Position numbers and translations under genes: made by a program | The notes under the pieces: generated by a model | What the model was told of the DNA's origin: nothing | Databases searched by the model: none | Seen by the model: only the letters and a program-made list of their open reading frames with translations | Assembly: GCA_018457135.1 (NCBI GenBank) | Contig: JAGGDU010000069.1 | Location: 1-43,778 of the forward strand | Direction of reading: 5' to 3' | Length of the DNA stretch: 43,778 bases | From: Trichodesmium erythraeum GBRTRLIN201 | GTDB lineage: Bacteria; Cyanobacteriota; Cyanobacteriia; Cyanobacteriales; Microcoleaceae | In this document: piece by piece, positions 13,298-39,677 of the stretch | Numbering within the stretch: position 1 is the first letter of the stretch | Layout: each line of letters begins with the position of its first letter

Positions 13298-14647
13298 TTA
13301 AGCTGACTCCGGTTTAGGCAAAGACGAAGGATGCAATAACAACTCTGCAGTTGATCGCTTTTCCACCATTTCCTTAGTAATAGTGCAACGACTCACATCC
13401 TTCCGTGATGGTAGCTCATACATCACATCCAACATCAACTCCTCAACAATACCCCGCAAAGCTCGCGCCCCAGTCTTTCTCCTAAATGCTTCCTTCGCGA
13501 TCGCCCGTACAGCATCCTCCTCAAACTCCAACTTCACATTATCCATCCGTAACAGCTTTTGATACTGCTTCACCAGAGCATTCTGAGGTTTCGTCAAAAT
13601 TGCCATCAGAGTCTCCTCATCGAGAGGTTCAACGACAGCCACCATAGGTATTCGCCCAATCAATTCTGGGATCAAACCAAACTTCACCAAATCATTTGGT
13701 TCCATTTGCTTCATTAAATCTACAACTTTTTTCTCCTTAACCTGATAACTGTCCCCACTCTGGTGAATAAAGCCCATTGACTTTTTACCAATTCTTTGAT
13801 CTACTATCTTTTCTAAACCAACAAAAGCACCACCACAGATAAATAAAATATTACTCGTATCGATCTGAATACAATCTTGATAGGGATGTTTCCGACCACC
13901 TTGTGGAGGAACATTAGCAACAGTTCCCTCCAACATCTTTAATAAGGCTTGCTGCACACCCTCCCCAGAAACATCTCTTGTTATAGAAGGGTTCTCACTC
14001 TTACGAGCTATTTTATCAATCTCATCAATATATATAATTCCCCGTTGTGCTTCATCCACTTCTAAATCTGCTACTTGTAAAAGTCGTAGCAAAATATTCT
14101 CCACGTCCTCCCCAACATATCCAGCTTCAGTTAAAGTCGTCGCATCTGCCACGGCAAAAGGCACATCCAATAAATCCGCCAAAGTTTGAGCCAACAACGT
14201 TTTTCCACAACCTGTGGGCCCAATCAACAAAATATTAGACTTTTGTAATTCCACCTCATCTTGAGAGGACTTACCACTTTTTTTGGCCTCTAGAAAACTC
14301 AGACGTTTATAGTGGTTATAAACTGCCACTGATAAAACCTTCTTACCTTCCTCCTGACCAATAACATGAGCATCCAGATAATTCTTTATTTCCCTAGGCT
14401 TAGGTATTTGACTAATAGATAATCTCTTAGTACCAGTCCCTCGTTTTTGGGGTGCTGGTGCTGGACGTGGTATTGGTGGTTGTGCTCCTGTAGCATTGGA
14501 GTCAAAAAGCTCCTCATCCAAAATCTCATTGCACAACTCTACACATTCATCACATATATAAACTCCAGGTCCAGCTATCAATTTCCTAACCTGCTCTTGA
14601 GACTTGCCACAGAATGAACATTTTAGATGGGAGTCGTATTTAGACAT
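13298..14647 (-). CDS. clpX: ClpX, ATP-dependent protease ATPase subunit
   Basis: 449 residues. The unfoldase of the ClpXP protease recognises tagged substrates and threads them into ClpP. The N-terminal zinc-binding domain shows C10, C13, C32 and C35. Walker A is [14 protein letters not shown], Walker B is [10 protein letters not shown], the ClpP-docking loop is IGKKSMGF in the IGF position, and the sensor-2 region reads [11 protein letters not shown]. The length is normal. Its start lies 9 bases after the clpP stop, so the two are surely co-transcribed, the usual cyanobacterial order being tig-clpP-clpX. Confidence 0.97.
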
Positions 14648-14656
14648 AACTGCCTC

Positions 14657-15352
14657 TTATTGCATTGCAGGGACAGACTCTCCTGGTACAGGAAGATTCT
14701 GTCTAGTAATCACTTGATCAATCAGGCCATAGTTTTTAGCCTCTTCTGCGGACATAAAAAAGTCACGCTCTGTATCAACCTCTATTTTTTCTAGAGGTTG
14801 ACCTGTATGTTCTGCTAATAATTCATTTAGCTTACGCTTATGATAAAGGATTTCCTTAGCTTGAATCTCAATATCTACAGCTTGACCCTGAGCACCACCT
14901 AGAGGCTGGTGAATCATAATTCTAGAACTAGGAAGAGACATTCTCTTACCTTTTGCTCCACCAGATAGAAGAAAAGCCCCCATACTTGCTGCTAAACCAT
15001 AGCAAATTGTAACTACATCAGGTCGTACCTGTTGCATCGTATCGTATATAGCCATTCCTGCAGTCACTGAGCCTCCAGGAGAGTTTATATATAGTTGGAT
15101 ATCTTTTTCTGGGTCTTCAGCATCCAAGAATAACATTTGGGCTGTGATGGTATTTGCCAAATTCTCATCTACTTGAGTTCCCAGAAAAATTATTCTTTCC
15201 CGAAGTAGTCGTGAGTATAAGTCAAAAGCCCTCTCTCCCATGCCTGACTGTTCCACAACCATTGGCACAATATTACTAGGGCCGGAATAAACTTGTGACT
15301 TGCTATAACTACTATTAACTAAATTATCAGAATATTGAGATAGAACCATCAT
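14657..15352 (-). CDS. clpP: ClpP proteolytic subunit
   Basis: 231 residues; the serine peptidase chamber of Clp protease. The catalytic Ser is in [14 protein letters not shown], the His in [10 protein letters not shown], and the Asp in [15 protein letters not shown]. The oxyanion strand SPGGSVTAG is intact. About 30 N-terminal residues precede the conserved core at [16 protein letters not shown]. They may be a processed propeptide, or the true start may be the second Met. It is upstream of clpX by 9 bp and downstream of tig by about 1 kb, which is unusually far, because an independent RNA element and decayed sequence lie between them. Confidence 0.96.
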
Positions 15353-15981
15353 AAACTGGTTTATTTATCAATTTTAATTTTTGGCTCAGTATATTTCGAG
15401 CTAAATATCATTATGCCGTATTTTTACTAATTTTAGTAATCCAACACTTATCTTGCTCAAAGCTAGTGCTCAAGCCATCAACTTTAAATCTTCATGTCAT
15501 TAACAGTTAAAGCGATAACTGTTGGATACATTGTTTTGCTTAGAGTACTAAACCCCATCGCTAAGATTTTAAGGACCATTTGCTGACTTTAATCCGCACA
15601 GTGGTCACTCAGACCTCCATTATTTAATATCGCTTAACCTACGGCCGATACTATTAAGTACCAACAATTGTTAACAATGCACAGAAGGATTAACCGGGCT
15701 CAGAGGTTTCCCCTAATGTCTACAAGAGAACTTGTAGAAGCTTTTCAGAACTAGCATTGCCTTGCTTATCGACCCTCACAGAAGTTTCAATTACTTGATT
15801 ATGGGCTTAGGTACCTGATCAGGAATTCGGTTAAGCAGTGGCCAGGTTTGATACCAAAATCTACTTATCAAATTTTACCATAATCTATATTACTTAATAA
15901 GTATAACATAAGTATAACTATATCCCTGATATACAAGCTTATGTGAATAAACATTAGTAAATCAACAATAGTTAACTAACC
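15353..15981. other. structured or decayed spacer upstream of clpP
   Basis: Richer in GC than most spacers here. It holds perfect hairpins: 15502-15523 (8-bp stem, 6-base loop), 15719-15738 (8-bp stem TCTACAAG/CTTGTAGA, AGAA loop) and the palindrome CCTGATCAGG at 15814-15823. On the plus strand one frame from about 15684 reads MHRRINRAQRFPLMSTRELV, continuing to a stop after EAFQN, then on through QKFQLLDYGLRYLIRNSVKQ. I do not recognise the protein; it may be a remnant. Alternatively the hairpins belong to the clpP leader or an RNA gene. Confidence 0.4.
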
Positions 15982-16151
15982 TTGGCTCCCAAAATAAATT
16001 TTGTTTCTTGGCCTTACAGGAGTGTTATCTTGTCTAACAAGCTACTCACTATCCCAAGTATAGTTTACTTTTTGGCTTTTTTCTGTTTGATGCTAAATAA
16101 TTACCTAAAAATTGTGTTTAAAACCTCTCCCGTAAGATGGCTACTTTTTAG

Positions 16152-16181
16152 TTGTTTCTTTTTACATACATCTGTTATAAT
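16152..16181 (+). promoter_or_regulatory. promoter with extended -10 for the structured RNA
   Basis: A perfect TATAAT at 16176-16181 is preceded by TG at 16173-16174 (extended -10) and, 18 bases further up, TTGTTT at 16152-16157 as a weak -35. Transcription would begin near 16188-16190, about ten bases before the structured block. Confidence 0.6.
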
Positions 16182-16188
16182 AAGACTT

Positions 16189-16393
16189 AATTAACTACTG
16201 GCGGGGGCCGTTAGGAGTCAAATAGATTAAACGAATCTAGCAGATAATGGTTTGAAAATGGATCAAGTTTCCCTGTCGTGACTCTAATTGCAGTAGCATA
16301 TCTGAAACATCAACCCCCACAGGGATTTCACTCCCATTATATCTAACCCCGCGGCGGGAATAACCGTGGGTATATCAGTCAATCTTCTGCCTC
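16189..16393 (+). ncRNA. candidate structured ncRNA (HEARO/omega-RNA-like?)
   Basis: A GC-rich block in AT-rich DNA, with dense pairing: GGAGTCA 16214-16220 with TGACTCT 16279-16285; hairpin TAGATT/AATCTA 16223-16239; CAGATA 16241-16246 with TATCTG 16299-16304; GGGGG 16203-16207 with CCCCC 16314-16318; CCCTGT 16271-16276 with ACAGGG 16319-16324, crossing the previous pair (pseudoknot); and a strong hairpin 16346-16371 with loop CGGGAATAA. Two pairs rely on G-U and so only form in plus-strand RNA. A promoter sits just upstream. No protein follows on the same strand; tig ends convergently at 16394. The overall style recalls HEARO, the guide RNA of IscB-type transposons, but I cannot confirm the family. 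Confidence 0.55.
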
Positions 16394-17851
16394 CTATTCC
16401 TGAGAATTTTCTACAGTAGCTACTTCCTCTGCCTTTACTTCTACAATAGTTTCACTAGCTTGAGGTATTTCTGACTCTACCTCTGTTTCTAAGATTTCTG
16501 TAGTTTGAGGTGTTTGTGATTCTGTATGCAAAGTTCCTTCAGGGACTAATTCCACAGTGCCATTTGCTTCTAGCCATTTGATAGTTTTTTCTTTCAACAA
16601 TTCTTGAGTAACTACTTGTCTTAACCTATCTGAATCAAAATCTTTTTCTTTGAGCTGCTTCACTACTTTCTGTGACTCTGCTTTTATTTCTTCTTCGTCC
16701 ACGGTAATAGACTCTCTTTTTGCCACTGTAGCTATGACCAAATCCCTTTTTAATCGCTCAATTGCTTCAGGTCGTGTACGCTCTTGCATTTCCGGCAATT
16801 TCTCACTGCTGAAGAATTCTTTAACATCTATTCCATACTGACTCAAATCCATCGCACTTTGGGCTAACATTTGCTGAACTTCATTTTTAATTAAAGTTTC
16901 TGGAATTTCTACTTCTAGATGAGTCACCAGCTCGTCTATAATAGCCTTTTCCTTATTTTGTTTTGTTTTTTCCTCTTTTTCTTTAGTAAATTTTTGCTCC
17001 AAAAACTCTCGTAATTTGTCTATTGTTTCAAACTCACTAATCTCTTGAGCTAAATCATCATCTAATTCTGGTAATTCCTTTTCTTTGAGTTCTTTAAGAG
17101 TCACAGTAAATACCACTGGCTTACCGGCTAAATTTGCCTCACTATATTCCGAAGGAAACTGTGCAGAAATTTCCTTTGTTTCCTGTAACTTCATCCCCAC
17201 TATTCCCTCAATAAAGCCAGGAATAAATTGTCCTTCTTTTAAATCCATTTGGAAATCTTGAGCCTTACCCCCCGGCACTTCTTGTGCTTCTTCTCCTTCC
17301 GTCTCTGATGGAATTATACCTACAAAATCCACTATGGCCACATCTCCCATCTCAGCAGCTCTTCCTTCTATAGGAATTAATGTTCCCATTCGAGAGCGAC
17401 GTTCTTCAAGAAATTCATCCACAAGGGCTGAGTCATACTTAGCTTCTTCCGCCTGAACCAAGAATCCCTTATAATCCTCAACCTTGGCCTCTGGCTCTAC
17501 ATCTACCTTGGCCGAGAAAGCCATTTCTTTTCCTGGTTCAAAATCTTTTACTAACTCTTCAAACTCGGTTTTTAGTTCAAATTGGCCTATTGCTTTGATG
17601 CTTTCTTGTTCCCTTGCTTTTTCTAAGCAATTATTGATTAAGTCATCTAAGGCCATGGCCTTAATATAATTTTTTCCTAGTCTTTGGATCAAAATGTTTC
17701 TAGGTACTTTACCTTTTCTGAAACCAGGAATATTGGCCGAACGGATATATTTCTTAATTATCTGCTCATAAGCATTTTTGGACATTTCTGGTGAAATCTC
17801 AATTTCTAGACTTATTTGACTAGCTGGTAGTTTTTCCTGAGTAACTTTCAT
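16394..17851 (-). CDS. tig: trigger factor, ribosome-associated chaperone
   Basis: 485 residues. Binds the ribosome exit tunnel and shields nascent chains. The N-terminal ribosome-binding signature GFRKGKVP is at 43-50. The FKBP-type prolyl isomerase domain follows (about 160-250, with GDVAIVDFVGI and FIEGIVGMKLQETKEI), then the helical C-terminal chaperone domain. An acidic, low-complexity tail of about 50 residues (ESEIPQASETIVEVKAEEVA) extends it, common in cyanobacteria. It heads the conserved tig-clpP-clpX cluster, but the 1-kb gap to clpP makes separate promoters likely. Confidence 0.96.
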   Translation of the reverse strand: MKVTQEKLPASQISLEIEISPEMSKNAYEQIIKKYIRSANIPGFRKGKVPRNILIQRLGKNYIKAMALDDLINNCLEKAREQESIKAIGQFELKTEFEELVKDFEPGKEMAFSAKVDVEPEAKVEDYKGFLVQAEEAKYDSALVDEFLEERRSRMGTLIPIEGRAAEMGDVAIVDFVGIIPSETEGEEAQEVPGGKAQDFQMDLKEGQFIPGFIEGIVGMKLQETKEISAQFPSEYSEANLAGKPVVFTVTLKELKEKELPELDDDLAQEISEFETIDKLREFLEQKFTKEKEEKTKQNKEKAIIDELVTHLEVEIPETLIKNEVQQMLAQSAMDLSQYGIDVKEFFSSEKLPEMQERTRPEAIERLKRDLVIATVAKRESITVDEEEIKAESQKVVKQLKEKDFDSDRLRQVVTQELLKEKTIKWLEANGTVELVPEGTLHTESQTPQTTEILETEVESEIPQASETIVEVKAEEVATVENSQE

Positions 17852-36194: not shown

Positions 36195-37187
36195 GTGATC
36201 CATGCGACTTTACCAATACAGGCTCCTATACCTGCTATTGTTAACGATCATAATCGACTAAGACTGTTTTCAGGTTCTGCTAACGTTCCTCTCTCTACAG
36301 AAGTAGCTAGATACCTAGGTTTAGATCTAGGCCCAATGGTACGTAAGCACTTTGCTGATGGAGAGCTATACATTCAAATTCAGGAATCAATTAGAGGTTG
36401 TGATGTTTATCTAATTCAACCTAGTTGTCACCCAGTTAATGATAACCTGATGGAATTGTTGATAATGATAGATGCTTGTCATCGTGCTTCTGCCAGACAA
36501 ATTACCGCAGTAATTCCTTACTATGGTTATGCTAGGGCAGACCGTAAAACTGCTGGAAGAGAATCAATTACAGCGAAATTAGTGGCCAATTTAATTACTG
36601 AGGCGGGAGCTAGTCGTATTCTAGCAATGGATTTACATTCAGCTCAGATTCAGGGTTATTTTGATATTCCCTTCGATCATGTTTATGGCTTACCAGTAAT
36701 TTTAGATTACTTATTAAGTAAAAACTTATCTGATATTGTTGTTGTTTCTCCCGATGTAGGTGGAGTAGCAAGAGCTAGAGCTTTTGCAAAAAAGCTAAAT
36801 GATGCTCCTTTGGCAATTATTGATAAGCGTCGCCAAGCTCATAATGTAGCAGAAGTTTTCAATGTGATAGGGGATGTTAAGGACAAAACTGCTGTTTTAG
36901 TAGATGATATGATTGATACAGCTGGGACTATTTGTGAAGGTGGGCGACTATTACGGGAAAAAGGGGCACGACAAGTTTATGCCTGTGCTACTCATGCTGT
37001 ATTTTCCGGTACAGCTATTGAGCGCCTTTCAAATGGAATATTTGAAGAGGTAATTGTTACTAATACTATCCCATTCAATCAGGAAAATTCTTTTCCTCAG
37101 CTAATAGTTCTTTCAGCAGCAAATTTATTGGGTGAGACTATTTGGCGTATTCACGAAGACACTTCAGTTAGTAGTATGTTTCGCTAG
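36195..37187 (+). CDS. prs: ribose-phosphate pyrophosphokinase (PRPP synthase)
   Basis: 330 residues. Converts ribose-5-phosphate and ATP to PRPP, the precursor of nucleotides, histidine and tryptophan, and the co-substrate of the HisG in this window. Key segments: FADGELYIQIQESIRGCDVYLIQ, the catalytic Lys/Arg region ARADRKTAGRESITAK, DLHSAQIQGYFDIP, VVVSPDVGGVARARAFAK, and the ribose-phosphate loop VLVDDMIDTAGTI. The length is class I. Starts at GTG 36195 with AAGGGG about ten bases upstream. It is monocistronic. The about 1-kb upstream spacer carries the hairpin block at 35538-35758, possibly part of a long leader. Confidence 0.96.
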   Translation: MIHATLPIQAPIPAIVNDHNRLRLFSGSANVPLSTEVARYLGLDLGPMVRKHFADGELYIQIQESIRGCDVYLIQPSCHPVNDNLMELLIMIDACHRASARQITAVIPYYGYARADRKTAGRESITAKLVANLITEAGASRILAMDLHSAQIQGYFDIPFDHVYGLPVILDYLLSKNLSDIVVVSPDVGGVARARAFAKKLNDAPLAIIDKRRQAHNVAEVFNVIGDVKDKTAVLVDDMIDTAGTICEGGRLLREKGARQVYACATHAVFSGTAIERLSNGIFEEVIVTNTIPFNQENSFPQLIVLSAANLLGETIWRIHEDTSVSSMFR

Positions 37188-37288
37188 AATTAGCTATGTT
37201 TACCGCAAAATTGGGTCTCTATTCCCTCGCCCATAAGCAAGCAAAACCTGAGTTTATAGTGGGAAGACATAAACTATAGTATTATATC

Positions 37289-37441
37289 ACGGCTGGACTA
37301 TCTGAGACATTAAACGTACCTGGAGGGAAGAGAAGAACTACCGTCATCAAGATAGCAGCAACCAATAAAACGTCAACCCACTTGAGAGCTACGGCTCAGT
37401 ATAAATCTCCGTGCCTTCAGCCAAGAGAAAATCTCAGTTAA
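37289..37441 (+). pseudogene. TnpB C-terminal remnant and degenerate IS200/IS605 right end
   Basis: A short frame reads TAGLSETLNVPGGKRRTTVI then KIAATNKTS, closely recalling the TAGLxETLNACG end of IS605 TnpB proteins. The sequence ends near 37410-37430 in ATCTCCGTGCCTTCAG, the left arm and loop of a right-end hairpin seen in cyanobacterial TnpB elements; the right arm is degenerate. A stop lies a few codons upstream at 37277-37279. The right end is also where such elements encode their guide RNA. Confidence 0.45.
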
Positions 37442-37895: not shown

Positions 37896-39677
37896 ATGGC
37901 AACTATTGAATCTAAAGGCATGAATTTAGAAAAGTTATTTGATGAATTTTATGTTATTCCTGATTACCAGCGCGAATATGTTTGGACACAAAAAGAAGTC
38001 AATGAATTTATTCAAGACATCTATGAAGAATTTTCTGAACAAACTCAAAACTCTTACCCTGAGTATTTTATTGGCAGTATAATTGTTTGTGGTCGCGGGG
38101 AAAAATTTTATGAAATAATTGATGGCCAGCAACGAATTACTACTGCTTACCTTGTACTATGTGCAATTCGGGATTATCTATTAACTATTAATCCTAATGA
38201 ACCTATTGAAGCATTAAAAAATAAGATTGCTGCTTTGTATACGGATAACTGGGGTAATGACCAGTTTAGACACAAAGTAGAACTACAATATCAGGAAAGT
38301 CGAGGAATACTAGAAAATATAGCTCTACAAGCAAGTGTAGAGACTCTTAGTCCAACTCGCTCTGTTAAAAATATTCAGAATGCTTATACTGAAATTAGAA
38401 GTTTTCTTTACCAATATTTTCAAGTAGATGAACTTGTTGTTTTTAATATCAAAAAGTTTTACGCATATTTTCTTAAAAATGTTAAGTTAATTCGAGTCAA
38501 AACAGCTAGTGTTTCTCATGCTTTGAAAATATATTCAACTCTAAATCATCGTGGTTTAGCCCTAGATGATATGGATTTACTCAAAAATTTAATTTTTACT
38601 AAAGCTAAATCAACAGATTATGATCAAATCAAAGTAAAATGGAAAACAATGATAGACTTGCTTTATAATCATCAAGAAAAACCCATGCGTTTTTTGCGCT
38701 ATTTTATATTAGCCAAATACGCAAAAGATGGGAACTATATTTTGGAAAAAGAAGTCTATGATTGGTTCCTAAATAATGAACATATTTGTAGATATAAGAC
38801 TGAACCGATTCAGTTTGTGAATAATTTACTGAGCTCGGCTCAAGCTTATGTAGCATTTTTAATAGGTAATAATGTTGATGGTACTGTTAATCGGTATTTG
38901 GTAAATATTAGAAATCTTAGTATAAATGTTAGGCAGCATTTAATATTACTTTTAGCTGTTGATAAGTTGCCTAAAGCTTGTTTTGTTGATCTCTGTAGAC
39001 AGATAGAGAATTTATTATTTTTGGCAATGTTAACTAGCGATCGCCATAAAAAAGCATTTGATGGCATGATAATTAAGTGGGCAAGTGAGTTACGTACAAT
39101 TAGTTCACAAGAGGATTATGATATTTTTATTGCTCAGGAAATTATTCCTAGCAAACAGGGAGTAGCTGATAAATTTGAAAATACGTTCTATCGACTGAAT
39201 AAATTATCATTACAGCTATATCAAATTCGATATATTTTGGCAAAGATAACACAATATATAGATGAAATGGCCTGGGGAACTGTGGGAGGAATTGATGATT
39301 TAAGAAACTATGTTTTTAAATTAGAAGTAGAACAAATTTTATCAGAAAACCCTACAAAAGAAGTAGTTTTTGATTTTGATAAACCTACTGAAATAGTAAA
39401 CTATAGTCAACGTTTAGGAAATATGACTTTGTTAGAAAGTTCTATTAAATCTGCTATTTTAAATGCTAGTTTTACTGAGAAAAAATTAGGTTATACAAAA
39501 TCTAGATTTTTGTTAACTAGAACTATTGCTGAAGAAATTTCGGTGGGAAACAATACAACTATTAATTTGGCTGTCAAGGATTTAAAGACATTTGAAAAAT
39601 GGGATTCTCAAGCAATAGAAACTCGTCAAGAAATTTTAACTCAATTAGCTAAAAAAGTTTGGGATGTTCCTGAGTAA
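37896..39677 (+). CDS. DUF262/DUF1524 protein (GmrSD-like) with altered nuclease motif
   Basis: 593 residues. The N-terminal DUF262 has IPDYQREYVW (21-30) and DGQQRITTAYL (76-86), the ParB-like NTP-binding/hydrolysis motifs of GmrS-type proteins. A helical middle follows (NHRGLALDDMDLLKNLIF). The C-terminal DUF1524 resembles GmrD: LGNMTLLESSIKSAILN, FTEKKLGYTKSRFLLTRTI, FEKWDSQAIETRQEIL. Where the family has EHIxP, this protein has EQILSENP: the catalytic His is replaced by Q480 (codon CAA at 39333-39335). GmrSD enzymes restrict modified DNA; this one may be inactive as a nuclease, use another residue, or act as a regulator. It is monocistronic, next to a dispersed repeat and a TnpB remnant. 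The family is firm. Confidence 0.88.
   Translation: MATIESKGMNLEKLFDEFYVIPDYQREYVWTQKEVNEFIQDIYEEFSEQTQNSYPEYFIGSIIVCGRGEKFYEIIDGQQRITTAYLVLCAIRDYLLTINPNEPIEALKNKIAALYTDNWGNDQFRHKVELQYQESRGILENIALQASVETLSPTRSVKNIQNAYTEIRSFLYQYFQVDELVVFNIKKFYAYFLKNVKLIRVKTASVSHALKIYSTLNHRGLALDDMDLLKNLIFTKAKSTDYDQIKVKWKTMIDLLYNHQEKPMRFLRYFILAKYAKDGNYILEKEVYDWFLNNEHICRYKTEPIQFVNNLLSSAQAYVAFLIGNNVDGTVNRYLVNIRNLSINVRQHLILLLAVDKLPKACFVDLCRQIENLLFLAMLTSDRHKKAFDGMIIKWASELRTISSQEDYDIFIAQEIIPSKQGVADKFENTFYRLNKLSLQLYQIRYILAKITQYIDEMAWGTVGGIDDLRNYVFKLEVEQILSENPTKEVVFDFDKPTEIVNYSQRLGNMTLLESSIKSAILNASFTEKKLGYTKSRFLLTRTIAEEISVGNNTTINLAVKDLKTFEKWDSQAIETRQEILTQLAKKVWDVPE

Follow-up and report, generated by a model that had tools for sequence, protein, structure and literature searches.

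The segment 16105-16377 (plus strand) of the window, by which we mean the whole analysed stretch of 43,778 nucleotides from Trichodesmium erythraeum GBRTRLIN201, is very probably a diverged copy of a non-autonomous IS200/IS605 element of about 255-275 bp, of the type of the palindrome-associated transposable elements (PATEs), which arose from a TnpB element by internal deletion. At the level of sequence, both ends and the RNA were shown to be homologous to those of intact tnpB elements, the insertion to lie after TTAC and the copies to be dispersed, with different 3' flanks. What goes beyond chance in this segment is its membership in a repeat family, not its fold. The preliminary description had taken it for an orphan omega RNA left behind by a transposon and provided with its own promoter, which was right in kind: the RNA of the family is joined to tnpB, and the promoter box is present.

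Anatomy of the element

The element begins with a left end that contains a hairpin and an extended -10 promoter; an RNA of about 150-190 nt follows. The layout of the family is TTAC, a left end like C(G/A)AAAAATTGGGTTTAAAGCCTCGCCCATAAGCGGGCGACTTTTTAGTTG, the box TATGTTAT, then TTAATTAATTAG... and an end like GGGAGGATGTCAA; most full copies terminate in TCAA.

In the window the left boundary is the tetranucleotide TTAC at 16101-16104 (plus strand), assigned by its position, which would be an IS608-type insertion site and the TAM. The element begins just after it, so that the 5' limit given in the preliminary description was too short. The left end (16105-16181, plus strand) comprises an AT-rich start, an imperfect hairpin region (16120-16144), a T-rich stretch and the extended -10 box TGTTATAAT (16173-16181), the last of which had already been recognized. 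Independently of any model, blastn found this left end at about 25 other places of the genome (best E 3.1e-15). The left-end model R1 gave 68.2 bits (E 3.2e-18) for this copy, which is itself among the 20 training rows of R1.

The body, a diverged copy of a TnpB omega RNA (reRNA), extends from 16187 to 16377 (plus strand). The assignment was made with a profile of 32 copies that each scored at least 60 bits, this one excluded; the profile matched 16145-16350 with E = 1.2e-21, and the body-only part of this profile matched 16188-16340 with E = 5.6e-10. Since the profile match ends at 16350, the last 27 bases or so of this copy rest on alignment and sight. The identity of the copy to the consensus of 36 copies is 0.61, the second lowest value of the 36, and its right end reads TCAG rather than TCAA. 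The 3' flank (16378-16396, plus strand), which reaches into the last codon of tig, would be in the guide position if the RNA were used by TnpB, as judged from the layout of the TnpB reRNA described in PMC8612924.

A second copy of the element is present in the window at 37200-37436 (plus strand), with TTAC at 37200-37203 and the body at 37281-37436 (body profile E 9.4e-15). It is flanked by the genes of a ribose-phosphate pyrophosphokinase (36195-37187) and of a GmrSD-like protein (37896-39677).

The repeat family in this genome and its relatives

The left-end model was built from alignment A1, which holds 20 copies (19 from this genome, the tig copy included; two copies without the anchor were dropped). 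R1 is a sequence-only model because RNAalifold gave no pairs on the left end. In this genome it yielded at least 151 matches at E <= 0.01 (150 of 11391 candidates scored) and at least 115 at E <= 1e-6. Many of the 20 repeat places that were fetched share the whole element, not the left part alone. Among 79 distinct left-end copies in the examined loci, classified with a profile that then still included the tig copy, 41 extend to the end of the RNA profile and 14 carry partial RNA; the remaining 24 match the promoter part only (2) or are without a profile match (22). Distinct body copies in the loci of this genome number 65, of which 43 are full.

The left-end model matched 12 of 24 genomes, this one included, and all seven of its genus, with 11 to at least 150 matches each, and every one of the 71 stretches with the exact 35-base left-end pattern came from Trichodesmium or Okeania. 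The loci of relatives, picked by left-end score or exact pattern and not as a random sample, contain 126 distinct left-end places, namely 71 solo elements, 3 elements with an intact tnpB and 52 other or broken ones. Most of the solo elements (63/71) end 250-265 bp from the left end. Blastn of the tig element against 58 other genomes gave no match at E <= 0.01 (0/58), blastn being weak at such divergence, and the plasmid collection gave no match. An 18-nt exact match on contig C30 was taken as chance, the surrounding sequence looking unrelated.

The target of IS608 is TTAC (PMC8612924). In this genome 48 of the 79 left-end copies have these as their first four bases; among the left-end matches of relatives 55 of 61 (59 distinct) do so. 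TCAA forms the last four bases in 27/49 bodies of this genome and in 53/55 representatives from relatives. The 16-nt 3' flanks are all different, both in this genome (49/49) and among the representatives (55/55); their use as guides is a prediction. For the terminal tetranucleotides and flanks, the 49 of the 65 bodies were counted that reach the end of the profile.

The second copy of the window stands after ...TTTAC. Two of six congeners (L308 and L312) have ...TTCTTAC followed by what is, by eye, the counterpart of the right flank, which reads as an empty site; the other four differ there. A target duplication is absent at the insertions, as judged by eye.

The link to tnpB

The family left end is followed by an intact TnpB gene in a locus of Okeania hirsuta (L292; 400 aa) and in two further loci, L180 of genome G013 (400 aa) and L181 of genome G007 (389 aa). 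The left and right ends of the solo element also flank the gene in these three loci, the 3' end of tnpB overlaps the family RNA, and the distance from the left end to the end of the RNA body is about 1.34 kb. None of the three elements was seen to contain tnpA. The TnpB proteins of L292 and L180 contain the domains HTH_OrfB_IS605, OrfB_IS605 and Cas12f1-like_TNB, and that of L292 matches 12 solved sequences, including TnpB 8bf8 at 4.6e-72.

When the body profile was applied to 30 loci with tnpB domains, six matched at E <= 1e-3: four distinct tnpB ends (L094, 2.1e-18; L083, 1.3e-16; L087, 4e-13; L071, 3.9e-7), one duplicate (L088, the same place as L083) and a solo element on the other strand (L084, 3.6e-18). 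Sixteen loci were viewed, six of which have the DRD motif. The DNA behind this motif continues into the family RNA in L071 and L083, in the latter as DRDTNAAINILVAGGQSET and ...NAAINILVAGGQSET..., and is not family RNA in L072, L073, L075 and L079. L072 and L075 (G000:C123 and C57) belong to a second lineage of TnpB, in which the motif is followed by a different and shorter sequence that also ends in GGGAGGATGTCAA.

Since the RNA is homologous to the 3' ends of tnpB, it is taken to be a TnpB omega RNA (reRNA) and not an IscB/HEARO RNA, and its guide would therefore be located at the 3' rather than at the 5' end. Judged from the layout of these loci, the solo element is a TnpB element that has lost almost the whole of tnpB, and the promoter of this gene now stands before the RNA.

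In T. erythraeum GBRTRLIN201 a TnpB frame without stops is present at C195:76942-78033, which is 70% identical to the L292 protein over residues 1-364. The genome has 46 TnpB matches; the other long open frames (C21, C123 and C67) are less closely related, and all remaining matches are short or interrupted by stops. Y1_Tnp matched eight places, four of them without an internal stop.

We propose that an internal deletion of a TnpB element spared its left end, the promoter of tnpB included, its omega RNA and its right end, and that a Y1 transposase acting in trans mobilised the resulting element as single-stranded DNA. The promoter of young copies would then yield an RNA that is bound by TnpB in trans. 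With about 16 nt of 3' flank as guide, TnpB would cut the emptied TTAC-flank site, and repair of the cut site would copy the element back.

Extended to the whole lineage, this leads to a scheme that we offer tentatively and ourselves find rather doubtful: Trichodesmium and Okeania may harbor a swarm of solo omega RNAs, perhaps 100 or more guides per genome, every element with a promoter and a guide of its own, which share a few TnpB proteins in trans. If true, gene-less elements would be retained, and perhaps spread, by the RNA-guided nuclease of another element and would form a parasitic RNA layer.

Relation to known systems

PATEs are palindrome-associated transposable elements of IS605-type transposons, which were described from Haloquadratum walsbyi, with 177 and 194 PATEs in two Haloquadratum genomes (PMC3119063), and from Halanaerobium hydrogeniformans, where the PATE retains 28 nt of the left end, the final 58 nt of tnpB and a right end of 160 nt (PMC7290912). 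Like the PATEs described there, the Trichodesmium elements are internally deleted or gene-free relatives of IS605-type transposons with palindromic ends and without target duplication. Unlike them, the Trichodesmium element has in addition retained the promoter of tnpB together with a complete omega RNA and therefore reads as a solo guide-RNA gene; the PATE descriptions in PMC3119063 and PMC7290912 do not treat these elements as guide RNAs.

The reRNA of the TnpB of ISDra2 is made up of about 150 nt that cover the 3' end of the gene and the right end, followed by about 16 nt of flanking sequence that act as the guide (PMC8612924). The family RNA resembles the ISDra2 reRNA, as described there, in having about 150 nt, a 3' flank in the guide position and the target motif beside the left end. 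It differs in being detached from tnpB and in standing after TTAC, as in IS608, rather than after TTGAT, and its binding by TnpB is a prediction.

Standalone IscB omega RNAs (HEARO, RF02033) carry the guide at their 5' end. The family RNA shares with them that it is a transposon guide RNA without a protein beside it; unlike HEARO it would serve another nuclease, has its putative guide at the 3' end and gives no Rfam match.

PATEs being already known, the novelty is modest; of interest is the swarm of solo omega RNAs that bear promoters. The literature that was searched contained no promoter-bearing solo TnpB omega RNAs in large numbers for Trichodesmium or Okeania; we make no claim of priority. 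The single tig locus matters little and the family more: here nature combines one or a few intact TnpB genes with a very large number of solo guide RNAs that bear promoters, which lets one ask whether TnpB serves non-autonomous elements in trans. Trichodesmium was described to have a large, mostly transcribed non-coding fraction (PMC4649490), of which the family could be one source.

Fold and covariation

The stems listed in the preliminary description were found in place. The closing stem (16203-16318, plus strand) pairs GGGGG at 16203-16207 with CCCCC at 16314-16318 (duplex -11.9 kcal/mol) and is by eye the counterpart of CGGG(C/T)GGG / AACCCGCC of the family. The crossing helix (16271-16324, plus strand) pairs CCCTGT at 16271-16276 with ACAGGG at 16319-16324 (duplex -11.7 kcal/mol in this copy). 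The closing hairpin CCCCGCGG-CGGGAATAA-CCGTGGG lies within 16347-16370. Together with the terminal TATATCA it forms the right end (16347-16377, plus strand), which was placed by MAFFT and by eye with a boundary uncertain by some bases; its stem has -14.2 kcal/mol, and its counterpart in the family is CCCCGTGCC..GGCCGGGGAGGATGTCAA. Also the higher GC content was borne out, with 0.43-0.45 in 150-base windows from 16200 on versus about 0.27-0.33 just upstream.

Of the structured pseudoknotted RNA that had been envisaged the stems thus exist, but the fold is no better than that of shuffled sequences. For the plus strand of 16187-16393 it is ordinary (z = -0.32; 67 of 200 shuffles at least as good), and for the minus strand of the same stretch z is -1.08 (22/200).

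From the 65 body copies of this genome a set of 36, the tig copy included, was analysed with RNAalifold, which gave 0 pairs. The stems of these 36 copies were also compared in a duplex test of cognate against non-cognate partners, which was used in place of a stem comparison on MAFFT rows that suffered from misalignment. No stem paired better with its own partner, and three control pairings behaved similarly. The closing stem, too, showed no excess of cognate pairing across the copies of the genome, and the crossing helix, strong in this copy, was over 30 copies not above non-cognate pairing (z +1.3). Misalignment of old copies may conceal some covariation signal.

Of the 55 representative RNAs from relatives, 24 that are young or linked to tnpB were compared (alignment A3). 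Three of seven stems favoured their own partner in the cognate test, relatedness not being removed: the inner hairpin (z -5.4), 45-50/96-101 (z -4.1) and the right end (z -2.6). The other four showed no cognate excess in the same 24 RNAs. RNAalifold gave 32 pairs for this set, 9 of them with double changes, relatedness again not being removed, and the covariation term was small (-0.82 of -26.37 kcal/mol). When four parent or young RNAs were folded singly, three behaved like shuffles (z -0.88, -0.55 and -0.33) and the fourth had z -1.98. We read these comparisons as an indication that the RNA was functional in the parent element and in young copies.

The tig copy is most likely a drifting, inert relic despite its strong stems; it is read as inert because it is so far diverged. 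The alternative is that it is still an active guide RNA, which would be transcribed from its promoter and would serve the intact TnpB that another locus of the genome encodes. The box TGTTATAAT, the strong closing and right-end stems and the stop-free frame on C195 fit this alternative, which we nevertheless regard as improbable in view of the low identity to the consensus, the right end TCAG and the absence of covariation among the 36 copies of this genome. The suggestion of an independent RNA gene adopted by the host is not supported, the copy being among the most decayed of the family and the copies of the genome lacking covariation.

The tig-clpP spacer

The element is located between tig (16394-17851) and clpP (14657-15352), which is followed by clpX (13298-14647); the three genes, assigned by Pfam, are all on the minus strand. 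As noted before, the element faces tig, which is convergent with it and ends at 16394. It had also been stated that no protein follows, and indeed no open reading frame of at least 60 aa overlaps 16195-16393; the open reading frame 15982-16194 has no Pfam match.

The clpP-tig spacer has 1041 bp in the window (15353-16393). Spacer lengths were taken from 10 loci, including the window, out of 20 with both tig and clpP. The homologous spacers, whose comparison the preliminary description had called for, measure about 125 bp in three relatives (L014, L016 and L020), somewhat more in L023 and L025, and about 740-1085 bp in L017, L018, L021 and L022. The spacer of the window is composite. Its parts 15323-15552 and 15987-16103 match L018, and the region 16101-16198 is the third repeat of the spacer, with about 25 places in the genome. 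Several nested insertions occurred in this spacer, and the empty site of the tig copy is not clean.

Very improbable, in our estimate, is a domesticated host RNA acting on tig, either as antisense RNA or as tig terminator. In favour of it, the element runs towards tig and lies near the stop codon of this gene, and where relatives have a short spacer, tig is followed by a hairpin (CCGGTTATCCGGAC in L016 and L020), which is not seen here. Against such a role stand the blastn result of 0/58 other genomes, weak as it is at this divergence, and the tig loci L014-L042, in which the left end occurs only in L015, on the other strand, and in L022, with another body.

The stretch 15652-15982 is a separate dispersed repeat of about 330 bp; seven places of the same genome match most of it at 67-74% identity. 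The tig-clpP spacer gives the impression of an insertion hot spot: other insertions are present in relatives (L015, L017, L018, L021 and L022), among them the family left end on the other strand in L015 and, in L022, an element with similar ends (TTAC...GGAGAATGTCA) and a different body.

The search for HEARO and IscB

The preliminary description had assigned the RNA to an IscB-type transposon (HEARO), with a guide in the 10-15 bases before the structure. The scan that it had called for was performed with 4227 Rfam families, HEARO included, and nothing in the window reached the gathering scores; when E values up to 10 were admitted, the region 15400-16600 gave four weak matches, none of them HEARO. 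In 17 loci with family left ends Rfam found nothing except a tRNA, and 7 loci with strong copies yielded no match with E values up to 5. The bases proposed as 5' guide are family sequence (consensus AATTAATTAG), conserved among the copies rather than variable, and the RNA body adjoins tnpB, not iscB; an RRXRR domain was found at two other places of the genome only and none at the element. In our view the linkage to tnpB already refutes the HEARO/IscB reading, to which we give hardly any credence although it, too, posits a transposon-derived guide RNA without an attached protein. A resemblance to an IscB omega RNA was dropped, being unsupported by any search.

The genome-wide search for HEARO yielded three weak matches elsewhere, all below the cut-off, and 2 of 14 control genomes were also weakly positive. 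One match, on C105 (13.1 bits, E 8.4), lies about 160 bases behind a family left end, which might be cited in favour of HEARO and which we take as chance. Another weak match (27.6 bits), elsewhere in the genome, which might likewise be cited in favour of HEARO, stands just before a broken IscB-type RRXRR domain (L010/L102, G000:C179:96457-96956); this locus is probably a decayed true IscB locus.
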